Source: Anaerolineae bacterium UTCFX1
GTDB lineage: Bacteria; Chloroflexota; Anaerolineae; Anaerolineales; Villigracilaceae
DNA: 64,000 nucleotides
Assembly (NCBI GenBank): GCA_002050275.1
Contig: MWTB01000004.1
Span: 124,001-188,000 of the forward strand
Direction: 5' to 3'
Positions 32,577-36,281 of the stretch are shown here, in pieces. A program made the position numbers and the translations under genes. Below the pieces are notes generated by a model. That model did no database searches. It had not been told where the DNA came from and saw only the letters and a program-made list of their open reading frames with translations. How positions within the stretch are numbered: position 1 is the stretch's first letter; every line of letters starts with the position of its first letter.

Positions 32577-32605
32577 TTGACGAATTAGAACATCTGTTCT
32601 AAAAT
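32577..32605 (+). promoter_or_regulatory. promoter with a LexA-like operator in the spacer
   Basis: TTGACG (32577-32582) and TAAAAT (32600-32605) are exactly 17 bases apart. Between and overlapping them lies the palindrome TAGAAC-ATCT-GTTCTA (32586-32601), which has the GAAC-N4-GTTC form of the LexA/DinR box of Gram-positive-type bacteria. A repressor bound here would block the polymerase. Whether this organism's LexA uses this form is inferred. Confidence 0.6.
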
Positions 32606-32644
32606 CTCATGTGACAGTCACCTATTCAATTAAAGGAGATCAAC

Positions 32645-33403
32645 ATGACCACATACCGAAGAAACTCAGGGGATGGATTGCGAGCCTTATTCCGCGACCT
32701 CACACGCGGGAGACAGTTAAACCGCGGCGCGCTCTGGGGCATGATCATCCTCGTAGCGTTGGTCGCTTTCGAGGTCTCTAATTTCAACGCTACGCGTTTC
32801 GCCTTACAGGACATCCTCGGCGGGCTTTCCTTCGGCAGATTGCAGTGGGCGACCATTCTCGCAATTGCCTTCTGCGGCATAGATTTTGCCGGTATCGCCC
32901 GCGTGTTCACGCCCGAACAAGGCGCCGACGAGCCAAAAGAAGTCTATTATCTCTTCGGCGCGTGGTTGTTGGCGGCAGGCTTCAACGCCATCCTCACTTG
33001 GTGGGGCGTATCTATCGCGATCATCAATCATGCCAGCGCATCCGGCGGCGCAGTGATCAGCAACGAGACTCTGACAAAATTCGCGCCGATCTTCGTTGCA
33101 GCCATGATTCTGCTCATCCGCGTCATGCTTATCGGCTCATTCGCGCTGTCTGGCGACCGCATGTTCTCTACCGCAGAATCGAGCCGGGGTTATTCTCGCC
33201 CTGCTTCGCAACAGACCTATCGCCCAGCAACGCAATCGGCAGCATTACGTCCTGCTTCTAGTTTAAACCGCCCAGCGCCCACAATGCAAGGTCAATCATA
33301 TCGTCCTGCGACGAAGCCCGCGCAACAAGCGTCTTTTACGCGCGTTGAACCTACCTACCATTCGTTCAGCGACTCAGCGAGCGAACGTTCATACGACGCT
33401 TAA
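32645..33403 (+). CDS. four-helix membrane protein with disordered tail, behind the LexA-like promoter
   Basis: The family is unknown to me. A strong AAAGGAG lies 7 bases before the ATG. The 252-residue protein has a basic N-terminus, membrane helices at about residues 34-50, 73-90, 107-128 and 150-172, and a 75-residue Ser/Pro/Gln/Arg-rich tail (YRPATQSAALRPASSLNRPAP) that is probably disordered. The operator upstream suggests induction by DNA damage. The next gene, 82 bases downstream, encodes a lytic transglycosylase, so the two might act together on the envelope. Confidence 0.7.
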   Translation: MTTYRRNSGDGLRALFRDLTRGRQLNRGALWGMIILVALVAFEVSNFNATRFALQDILGGLSFGRLQWATILAIAFCGIDFAGIARVFTPEQGADEPKEVYYLFGAWLLAAGFNAILTWWGVSIAIINHASASGGAVISNETLTKFAPIFVAAMILLIRVMLIGSFALSGDRMFSTAESSRGYSRPASQQTYRPATQSAALRPASSLNRPAPTMQGQSYRPATKPAQQASFTRVEPTYHSFSDSASERSYDA

Positions 33404-33485: not shown

Positions 33486-34193
33486 ATGCCCCGCGCTCGT
33501 TCACAAAATCTTCCCGATCGGCAAACAGCCGCCGCAAACGATAATGCAAGCGGCTGTTTGTCTTTTTACGCCTTGCCGCCTCTTGCGGCGATTTTGATCA
33601 CATGCCTACTCGCCGCGCTGGCGTCAAACGCACCGCTTCAAACGTCCGCTTCGTTCGTCAGTCAGTCTGTTTCAAGTGCGCCGCCCGTCGCAAACGAACT
33701 CTCCCCTATCTTCACACGGGAAGTTCAGCGCTGGGGCAACGACATCCTCCGCTGGGCAAATGCTTCCTCTCTCGATCCTAACTTAGTCGCTACAGTGATG
33801 CAGATCGAATCATGCGGCGATCCGCGCGCGTTGTCGCGTTCAGGCGCGATGGGACTCTTCCAAGTGATGCCGTTCCACTTCCGCTACGGCGAAAACGGAT
33901 TCAACGTCGAAACAAACGCCTTACGCGGACTTGCCTATCTTGCAGATTCACTCCAAACCGCAAACGGCGATCCGCGCTTAGCGTTGGCGGGTTACAACGG
34001 CGGCATCAGCGCGATCAATCGCAGCGAATGGACGTGGCACGCTGAAACAGCGCGATATGTGCGTTACGGCGCGCCTATTTACAACGATGCGCGCAACGGG
34101 CTCGCATCCAGCGCCGCGCTAGACGAGTGGCATCAAAACTATGGCGCAGGATTATGCCGTCAAGCCGCGCAAAGATTAGGATTAGACAACTAA
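33486..34193 (+). CDS. lytic transglycosylase, SLT domain
   Basis: SLT-type enzymes cut peptidoglycan between N-acetylmuramic acid and N-acetylglucosamine. The protein has an N-terminal membrane or signal helix (residues about 28-48). The SLT core follows: LVATVMQIESCGDPRALSRSGAMGLFQVMP, with the catalytic Glu in QIES, then ALRGLAYLADSLQTANGDPRLALAGYNGG. The 235-residue length fits a small secreted transglycosylase. AAAGGAA precedes the ATG. It follows the membrane protein gene with the LexA-like promoter and may share its transcript. Confidence 0.9.
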   Translation: MPRARSQNLPDRQTAAANDNASGCLSFYALPPLAAILITCLLAALASNAPLQTSASFVSQSVSSAPPVANELSPIFTREVQRWGNDILRWANASSLDPNLVATVMQIESCGDPRALSRSGAMGLFQVMPFHFRYGENGFNVETNALRGLAYLADSLQTANGDPRLALAGYNGGISAINRSEWTWHAETARYVRYGAPIYNDARNGLASSAALDEWHQNYGAGLCRQAAQRLGLDN

Positions 34194-34207: not shown

Positions 34208-35569
34208 TTAAATTACCGGCAGCCAAACGGCGAACACTGTGCCTTGTCCCTCTTCAGAATTAACTTCGATCCTGCCGCCGTGTCGCTCAACAAGCCAATT
34301 GGCGATGGAAAGCCCGAGTCCAAAACCAACGCTCTTGCTGCGCGTGCGCGATTTCTCAGCGCGGTAGAAGCGCTCGAAGATATGGGTTAAATCCTCCGCT
34401 GGAATGCCAGGACCCGTATCGCGGCAAATAATGCGCGCCTGATCCTTTATTTTTTCAAGGCTAAGAAAGATTTCTCCGCCAGCAGGCGTGTATTGAATCG
34501 CATTCGCAACGAGATTAATGAGAACTTGTTTGAGCCGATCGCGGTCGCCTTTGACGATAACTTGATCAATCTCATTGAGATGTAAACGAACTTTATTCCC
34601 CGCCAGTACGCTCATTTCCTGAAAAACTTCGGCGAGAAGCAGATCGAGTTCTACAGGGCTTTCCGCCAGCGCGAGTTTTCCCGATTCAGCCTGCGCTAAC
34701 AACAACAATCCTCCCACAAGGCGCGAGAGACGCCCTGCTTCTTGATTTATACTGGTCAGCGATTCTTCGTCGAATTTCTTTATACGACGCATCAAATCCG
34801 CATTGCCTTTGATAACTGTAAGCGGCGTGCGCAGTTCGTGACTTACATCCGCAAGCAGGCGTTGCTGCGAGGTGAACAAAATTTCAAGACGTTCGAGGGT
34901 TTGGTTGAACGAATTCACTAAACTGCTAATTTCATTGGCAGGACCGTCGTATGGGATGCGGCGAGAAAGATCATCGGCGCGGTTGATCTGCTCCGTCGTC
35001 TGAGTGATGATTTTCAAGGGTTTCAACGCTTGACGAAGCGCCATCCATGCTATATTACCGGAGACTAGGACGGCGATCCCCCAAATCGCGATAAGTATTC
35101 TAAGCAATTCGCTGCTAGCCGCATCTACTGCGCTCAAATTTGCCGCAATCTGTAGAATCGCCACATGGCGGTCGTTATGCGTCAGAGGCGCGCTGACCAC
35201 TCGCAGGCGATATGTTCCCGAAGTTATATTGCTGTATACCGGAGCATTAAACTTAAACGCGCTCGGATCAAAAGGGCGGTCGGAAAAACCTTCCAACGTG
35301 CGCCAACCAGTTTGCAGCGTGTTATCCACGCCCCAGACTTGGATATACACATCGGAATTCAGCTCAATAACGGATAGGTCCACCGTAATCTCGTCAATCG
35401 GATTAACAGTCATGCCGCTGACGACAATATCCGCCGCCGTTGCAAGCTCATTGTCAATTCGGTTGATCAACATTGCCTTGAAAACAAAGATCGCCGCCGC
35501 CGCAAAGACGAGCAGAACCCCGCCTGTGAGCATCGCGTGGAGCAAAGTCAGGCGCAGGCGAAGAGACAT
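34208..35569 (-). CDS. two-component sensor histidine kinase
   Basis: This is the membrane sensor of a two-component pair with the 35604 regulator. It has two membrane helices (about residues 12-34 and 158-178) with a periplasmic sensor of about 120 residues between them, and a HAMP domain (ALKPLKIITQTTEQINRADDLSRRI). The HisKA motif is LLADVSHELRTPLTVIKGNADL, with the phospho-accepting His, and the ATPase boxes are NLVANAIQYTP, DTGPGI and GFGLGLSIAN. The signal is unknown. The gene lies 34 bases downstream of the regulator. Confidence 0.93.
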   Translation of the reverse strand: MSLRLRLTLLHAMLTGGVLLVFAAAAIFVFKAMLINRIDNELATAADIVVSGMTVNPIDEITVDLSVIELNSDVYIQVWGVDNTLQTGWRTLEGFSDRPFDPSAFKFNAPVYSNITSGTYRLRVVSAPLTHNDRHVAILQIAANLSAVDAASSELLRILIAIWGIAVLVSGNIAWMALRQALKPLKIITQTTEQINRADDLSRRIPYDGPANEISSLVNSFNQTLERLEILFTSQQRLLADVSHELRTPLTVIKGNADLMRRIKKFDEESLTSINQEAGRLSRLVGGLLLLAQAESGKLALAESPVELDLLLAEVFQEMSVLAGNKVRLHLNEIDQVIVKGDRDRLKQVLINLVANAIQYTPAGGEIFLSLEKIKDQARIICRDTGPGIPAEDLTHIFERFYRAEKSRTRSKSVGFGLGLSIANWLVERHGGRIEVNSEEGQGTVFAVWLPVI

Positions 35570-35603: not shown

Positions 35604-36281
35604 TTAGGGGTTTTCGCGCATGACGTATCCAACGCCGCGCACCGTATAAAGCAAGCGCGGTTCGTCCTCCGCCTCCAGCTTTTGACGCAAATAACGAATG
35701 TATACTTCTAACACATTGCTCTCGCCGCCAAAGTCATACCCCCACACGCGATCGAAGATCACCTCGCGCGTCAGCACTTGTTTTGGATGTCGCAGGAACA
35801 ACTCGAGCAATTCATATTCTTTCGCCGTCAAGGAGATCGTGCGATTACCGCGCGAGGCTTGGCGCGTGCCAGTATCTAATGAAAGATCGGCAAATTTCAA
35901 TACCGGGATTCGCTCCGGTTGCGTCCTACGCAACAACGCGCGAACGCGCGCAAGCAATTCGTCGAGATTGAACGGCTTGACCATGTAATCATCCGCGCCC
36001 GCGTCCAATCCCTGAATGCGATCTTGTATCGTATCTTTCGCCGTCAACATCAAGATGGGAATCGAGCCGCCAGTGCGCAAACGATGGCACACTTCTAGCC
36101 CATCCATGCCGGGCAACATCCAATCTAAGATGACAAGATCGGGCGTATGATCGCGCGCAAGGATCAACCCCATGCGCCCATCGGTCGCCGAATCTACCGT
36201 GTAGCCTTCATAGGCAAGACCCCGTTGAAGCAGTTTAAGAATCTGCTGATCGTCTTCAATGATAAGGATGCGCTCGTTCAT
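35604..36281 (-). CDS. two-component response regulator, OmpR family
   Basis: The receiver domain has the acidic pair IIEDD near the start, the phosphorylated Asp in [13 protein letters not shown] (about residue 53), and the conserved Thr/Lys ([12 protein letters not shown]). The C-terminal OmpR-type winged helix includes [31 protein letters not shown]. The 225-residue length is typical. AGGAG lies before the ATG, and a possible promoter (TTACGA-N16-TATATT, 36326-36299) sits just upstream. It is probably transcribed with the kinase. Confidence 0.94.

Follow-up and report, generated by a model that had tools for sequence, protein, structure and literature searches.

SOS-induced membrane proteins and cell-wall hydrolases that halt division, such as YneA, DivS and ChiZ, are the commonest precedent for the locus described here (PMC3989709), and YneA and FtsW also serve as a precedent for SOS division arrest (PMC13396833). 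We analyzed a 64-kb window, meaning the whole 64,000-nt stretch of contig MWTB01000004.1 from Anaerolineae bacterium UTCFX1 (Chloroflexota; family Villigracilaceae), and within it a two-gene locus coding for a four-transmembrane (four-TM) protein, which we call MEM, and a lytic transglycosylase, SLT. Like YneA of Bacillus, DivS of Corynebacterium, ChiZ (Rv2719c) of Mycobacterium and SosA of Staphylococcus, the MEM-SLT pair is associated with the membrane and wall and is putatively controlled by LexA; ChiZ has been reported to be a cell-wall hydrolase, and the operators in Firmicutes and Actinobacteria are of the same GAAC-N4-GTTC type as the one at MEM. MEM is unrelated in sequence to these four proteins and differs from them in spanning the membrane four times and in its cytoplasmic tail; further differences are the hydrolase, which is encoded by a separate SLT-type gene in the operon, and the presence of two MEM paralogues per genome. 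The LexA regulation itself is ordinary, and MEM-SLT is functionally akin to known SOS effectors while lying outside every family compared.

The promoter of the MEM gene in the window (32577..32605, forward strand) consists of a −35 element TTGACG (32577–32582) and a −10 element TAAAAT (32600–32605) separated by a spacer of exactly 17 bp (32583–32599). The spacer is taken up by a putative LexA operator, TAGAACATCTGTTCTA (32586..32601, no strand assigned), with perfect palindromic arms of six bases around N4, the last two bases of which overlap the −10 element. Direct reading of the sequence bore out the initial annotation, which had placed a LexA-like operator inside a 17-base promoter spacer, and the placement of the operator, overlapping the promoter, appears compatible with repression. 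This operator shares its exact core with the site in the lexA promoter of the genome itself, TTGACA-CA-GAACAGGCGTTC-GAG-TATCAT, which was located through the PF01726 match of its gene product. Genome-wide, only three genes, lexA, MEM and a MEM paralogue, had an exact GAAC-N4-GTTC downstream of a TTGAC box and ahead of their start codon. A scan for TTGAC-N2-9-GAAC-N4-GT also recovered the recA promoter, where a box with one mismatch, GAACATCTGTGC, lies between TTGAC and the −10 element, together with an Hsp20-like gene and another gene, both with poor second arms. The Y-family polymerase gene carried a single one-mismatch site outside a TTGAC promoter setting. The sequence at the Hsp20-like gene, located 71 bp 5′ of it, is the promoter-like TTGAC-AAA-GAACTTGCGT (L205:1501-1518; C11:124239 in the genome itself), a doubtful LexA site.

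GAAC-N4-GTTC is the established LexA motif of Gram-positive bacteria (PMC3323433), and the boxes described here share with those of Gram-positive species the same core and the same placement at the lexA and recA promoters. They differ in that the MEM genes carry the longer TAGAAC-N4-GTTCTA overlapping the −10 element, which is more complete than any other operator found in the genome. Boxes of the GAAC-N4-GTTC type also occur in Dehalococcoides, a member of the same phylum. The initial annotation had called for a comparison with the lexA and recA promoters; besides the two sites of this genome, the same motif was present at one mismatch or less in 27 of 30 lexA upstream regions of family relatives (exact in 22), the three regions without it being truncated loci where the assumed start position fails. 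At recA, the one-mismatch motif was found in 26/30 relatives. In 25 of these the same GTGC arm stands directly 5′ of TATAC/TATAA, the broken arm GAAC-N4-GTGC being fused to TATACT as in the genome's own recA (L180:1349-1385; relatives L244-L272); this imperfect recA box is apparently a weak operator that has been maintained. The LexA protein of the genome carries the self-cleavage motifs of the LexA family, Ala-Gly in PIAAGPF, Ser in KGDSMIDAM and Lys in EYTLKYF. One 96% complete genome (G074) had no LexA_DNA_bind match, yet its two MEM genes and its recA retained their LexA boxes (L275, L277, L268); because these boxes are kept, an assembly gap is likelier than loss of lexA, a replaced LexA being a further possibility.

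Conservation of the operator at the membrane gene in relatives, also proposed initially as a check, was seen throughout the family. Among 97 distinct MEM upstream regions, TAGAACNNNNGTTCTA was exact in 69, had one mismatch in 26 and two mismatches in one. Thus, at the 12 fixed positions 95/97 regions had no more than one mismatch, compared to 0.06% of random windows of the same loci; the regions are kin rather than independent trials, but the pattern extends across clades whose proteins are as little as 26% identical. Of the two regions that fell short, one (L138) was cut by a contig end. The arms were constant and the four spacer bases variable, the box began 2–4 bp after TTGACN in 86/97 regions, the −10 element was mainly TAAAAT, TATAAT or TATACT, and the operator was retained in all clades, distant families of the class included. 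Some MEM promoters (L024, L025, L028, L053, L101, L119, L123, L277, L278) contained tandem LexA boxes ~30 bp apart, which suggests extra-tight repression. Taken alone, the bare motif is weak evidence: GAACN4GTTC was found 43 times in the 2.78-Mb genome, mostly within genes, versus 41 times for the reversed control, and it was likewise not enriched within the window. The site at MEM is raised above chance by its promoter position, by the same site at lexA, recA and the paralogue, and by its conservation relative to the control windows. The LexA control that was first supposed holds on sequence grounds, and for MEM itself we regard control by LexA as almost certain.

MEM in the window (MEM-A; 32645..33403, forward strand) is a 252-aa four-TM protein of an undescribed family, with an arginine-rich N-terminus and an R/P/S-rich tail containing an EPTYH motif. 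Its paralogue MEM-B (contig C6:1875-2594) is 49% identical and has the same strong operator upstream. Hydropathy and the distribution of positive charges predicted four TM helices with both termini in the cytoplasm. Sixteen positions were invariant in 77 MEM sequences down to 26% identity, including E43, N46, D80, N114 and R159, all charged or polar and located within or at the membrane helices; the retention of such residues over this range argues that MEM is under functional constraint. The tail (33178–33403 in MEM-A), unstructured in the model, was variable except for EPTYH near its end, a probable docking site: the P-T-Y-H motif was present at the tail end of 103/113 MEM proteins and in both paralogues.

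A first structure model of MEM built from 18 sequences was too poor (predicted local distance difference test, pLDDT, 51.5), and the AlphaFold2 model of residues 1–178 from 77 sequences reached pLDDT 73 and a predicted template-modelling score of 0.61, with four long helices. Comparison of this model to PDB returned no significant fold (best E 0.27; best second-look Z 7.0, under the noise level for helical bundles), and the MEM profile matched no PDB sequence. MEM was matched by no family of Pfam, NCBIfam or PADLOC, and neither MEM-A nor MEM-B by any of PHROGs; the Pfam and NCBIfam searches did not place MEM in the sequence family of any known SOS division inhibitor of the YneA, DivS, ChiZ, SosA, SidA or SulA type. 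Scattered Pfam and PHROGs matches of single members among the 77, including those to a holin in Pfam (E 0.095, one sequence) and in PHROGs (E 0.42, one sequence), look like membrane-protein noise. A defence system was rejected on the lack of a PADLOC match, and DUF2637 (PF10935) was rejected as the MEM family because its profile matched nothing in this genome at E ≤ 10. By these searches, neither Pfam nor NCBIfam contains a profile for the MEM family.

The second gene (33486..34193, forward strand) encodes SLT, a 235-aa lytic transglycosylase with an N-terminal membrane anchor or signal, which matched PF01464 at E 2.8e-19 with a domain score of 69.3 bits compared to the curated cut-off of 21.3. 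The open reading frames, the four hydrophobic segments, the R/P/S-rich tail and this PF01464 match all agree with the original description of a four-helix membrane protein with a disordered tail followed by a lytic transglycosylase. As in other SLT-domain (PF01464) lytic transglycosylases, the catalytic Glu, an AGYNGG-type motif and a single N-terminal anchor are conserved; SLT differs from them in its pairing, as the probable second gene of a LexA-controlled operon, with a four-TM protein not described before, and in having two near-invariant Cys. The catalytic Glu, in a (Q)IESCGDP motif, was invariant in 90 SLTs and the N-terminal hydrophobic segment was present in 89 of them; the conservation of these features and of the two Cys suggests that the enzyme is active and is anchored on the outer side of the cytoplasmic membrane.

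Pairing of the two genes in relatives, which had been put forward as a further check, was found in most loci: the SLT gene lay 3′ of MEM on the same strand in 93/116 distinct MEM loci, with a median gap of 84 nt by a crude start-codon rule. Because the genes share a strand in these loci and no separate LexA box was present in the MEM-SLT gap, we read them as one operon and infer that they are co-transcribed. The same order was found in two distant families of the class (L145/L146; L159/L161). The MEM paralogue had no SLT neighbour and kept its LexA box (L147-L157, L163), and one genome without an SLT gene had kept MEM (L053). In a tree of 77 MEM cores the SLT-linked copies clustered, with 5 label changes versus 18.6 in shuffles.

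MEM was present in 147/152 genomes of the family, 25/26 genera and 88/88 high-quality genomes, usually in two copies. When 400 genomes were sampled evenly over the phylum, 38 contained it, all but three marginal matches falling within the same class, and its named relatives belonged to Anaerolineales/Anaerolineae genomes, including Ca. Villigracilaceae. A phage, prophage or plasmid origin was rejected after no relatives were detected in viral contigs, phage records (also at E 10) or plasmid records. Given that MEM belongs to the chromosomal core and was absent from the phage, plasmid and viral collections searched, we take MEM-SLT for a conserved SOS operon of the chromosome that encodes a new protein family, rather than for a prophage remnant. 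The same results give no support to the phage response that was among the functions first suggested for the pair; between the other two, division arrest and lysis, the sequence does not decide.

Downstream of the pair, the window encodes on the reverse strand a convergent sensor histidine kinase (34208..35569), which adjoins MEM-SLT in 70/80 loci, and its partner, an OmpR-type response regulator (35604..36281), seen in 57/80 loci, some of which end before it. The conserved synteny makes this two-component system a possible functional partner of MEM-SLT. No competence or conjugation gene was found among the recurrent neighbours in the 80 loci. A PrsW-type intramembrane protease (PF13367; 29481–30464, reverse strand) lies ~2 kb from the operon, an arrangement seen in 1/80 loci.

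The explanation that we favour, and to which we give an even chance, is a LexA-repressed SOS operon holding a division or envelope checkpoint. DNA damage would generate RecA filaments, LexA would cleave itself and leave the MEM promoter, and four-TM MEM would be made together with the membrane-anchored SLT, whose substrate would be the peptidoglycan outside the membrane. The stand-alone MEM paralogue would be expressed from an SOS promoter of its own. In the membrane, MEM would most likely act on the division or wall-synthesis machinery, with the cytoplasmic EPTYH tail as a probable docking site, and SLT would trim the wall at the site of MEM, so that division or completion of the septum would be held until the DNA is repaired. 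We infer the induction by damage, the location and the checkpoint role of MEM-SLT; a checkpoint is the most likely role because membrane and wall SOS effectors are the usual way of holding division. Several points weigh against this explanation. MEM has no homology to any known division inhibitor, and these inhibitors are mostly small proteins with one TM helix, whereas conserved charges in a protein of four TM helices would rather suggest a channel, transporter or signalling core. The MEM paralogue functions without an SLT neighbour, and the conserved two-component neighbour suggests a wider role in envelope stress.

An unlikely alternative is a general module of envelope stress and repair in which LexA would be one of several inputs, and MEM and SLT would remodel the envelope with the convergent two-component system. 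The frequency of the kinase and regulator genes beside the pair favours such a module, as does a locus where they flank MEM though SLT is absent (L164). However, no control site other than the LexA box can be recognised at MEM, the kinase and regulator genes lie on the other strand, and synteny alone is no proof of joint function.

Next in order, and unlikely in our estimate, is SOS-triggered lysis or fragmentation of the filament, with MEM as a holin-like permeabiliser and SLT as an endolysin-like enzyme, by which a badly damaged cell would lyse or leave the filament. The pair resembles phage holin-endolysin cassettes, with a membrane gene beside a muralytic gene under damage control as in SOS-linked explosive lysis by pyocin and maltocin endolysins, and such damage-induced lysis by an endolysin does exist (explosive cell lysis, PMC4834629). 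SLT also matches phage endolysin/transglycosylase profiles (phrog_669, E 1.6e-18), and activated sludge is rich in filamentous Chloroflexota, the ones discussed including 'Ca. Villigracilis' (PMC10746286). Unlike those cassettes, however, MEM is chromosomal, has no phage or plasmid relatives and gives no consistent holin match; a core gene mostly present in two copies and kept for very long would be unusual for a suicide device, holins do not typically conserve polar residues within the membrane as MEM does, and the SLT domain is also that of ordinary housekeeping enzymes.

We consider rather improbable a non-phage, LexA-driven device of the whole class, made up of MEM, SLT and the free MEM paralogue, that would combine membrane sensing or gating through the buried charges with septal wall cutting, and would isolate or remove damaged cells of the filament; if true, it would be a damage response that no known SOS effector performs. 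Still less probable is damage-induced DNA exchange, in which the pair would open the wall for uptake or release of DNA, as with the damage-induced lysozyme tied to DNA exchange in Helicobacter pylori (PMC2912397). The MEM model (pLDDT 73) gave weak matches in BFVD (E 0.03–0.06, TM-score about 0.5) to four-TM phage proteins including DUF2637. Some DUF2637-type proteins belong to actinobacterial plasmid transfer; but four-helix membrane bundles easily give weak fold matches, PF10935 found nothing in this genome, and the recurrent neighbours offered no gene for competence or conjugation. Finally, a chance palindrome in front of genes that are not SOS genes, which the lack of enrichment of the bare motif might favour, was ruled out to a vanishingly small residue by the preservation of both arms around a free N4 spacer, the fixed promoter position and the presence of the box at lexA and recA.

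Our literature search, which lacked most subscription papers, returned no paper on the LexA regulon of Anaerolineae, and the literature searched contained no description of a class-wide core SOS operon that joins an SLT enzyme to a four-TM protein. Because the only exact LexA boxes in clear promoters of the genome are those of lexA and the two MEM genes, the best-marked SOS output of this environmentally abundant group, besides LexA and recA, appears to be an undescribed envelope protein. MEM is a defined and well-conserved target for how Chloroflexota connect DNA damage to the cell envelope, and it points to an envelope or cell-division checkpoint in the mostly uncultured Anaerolineae.
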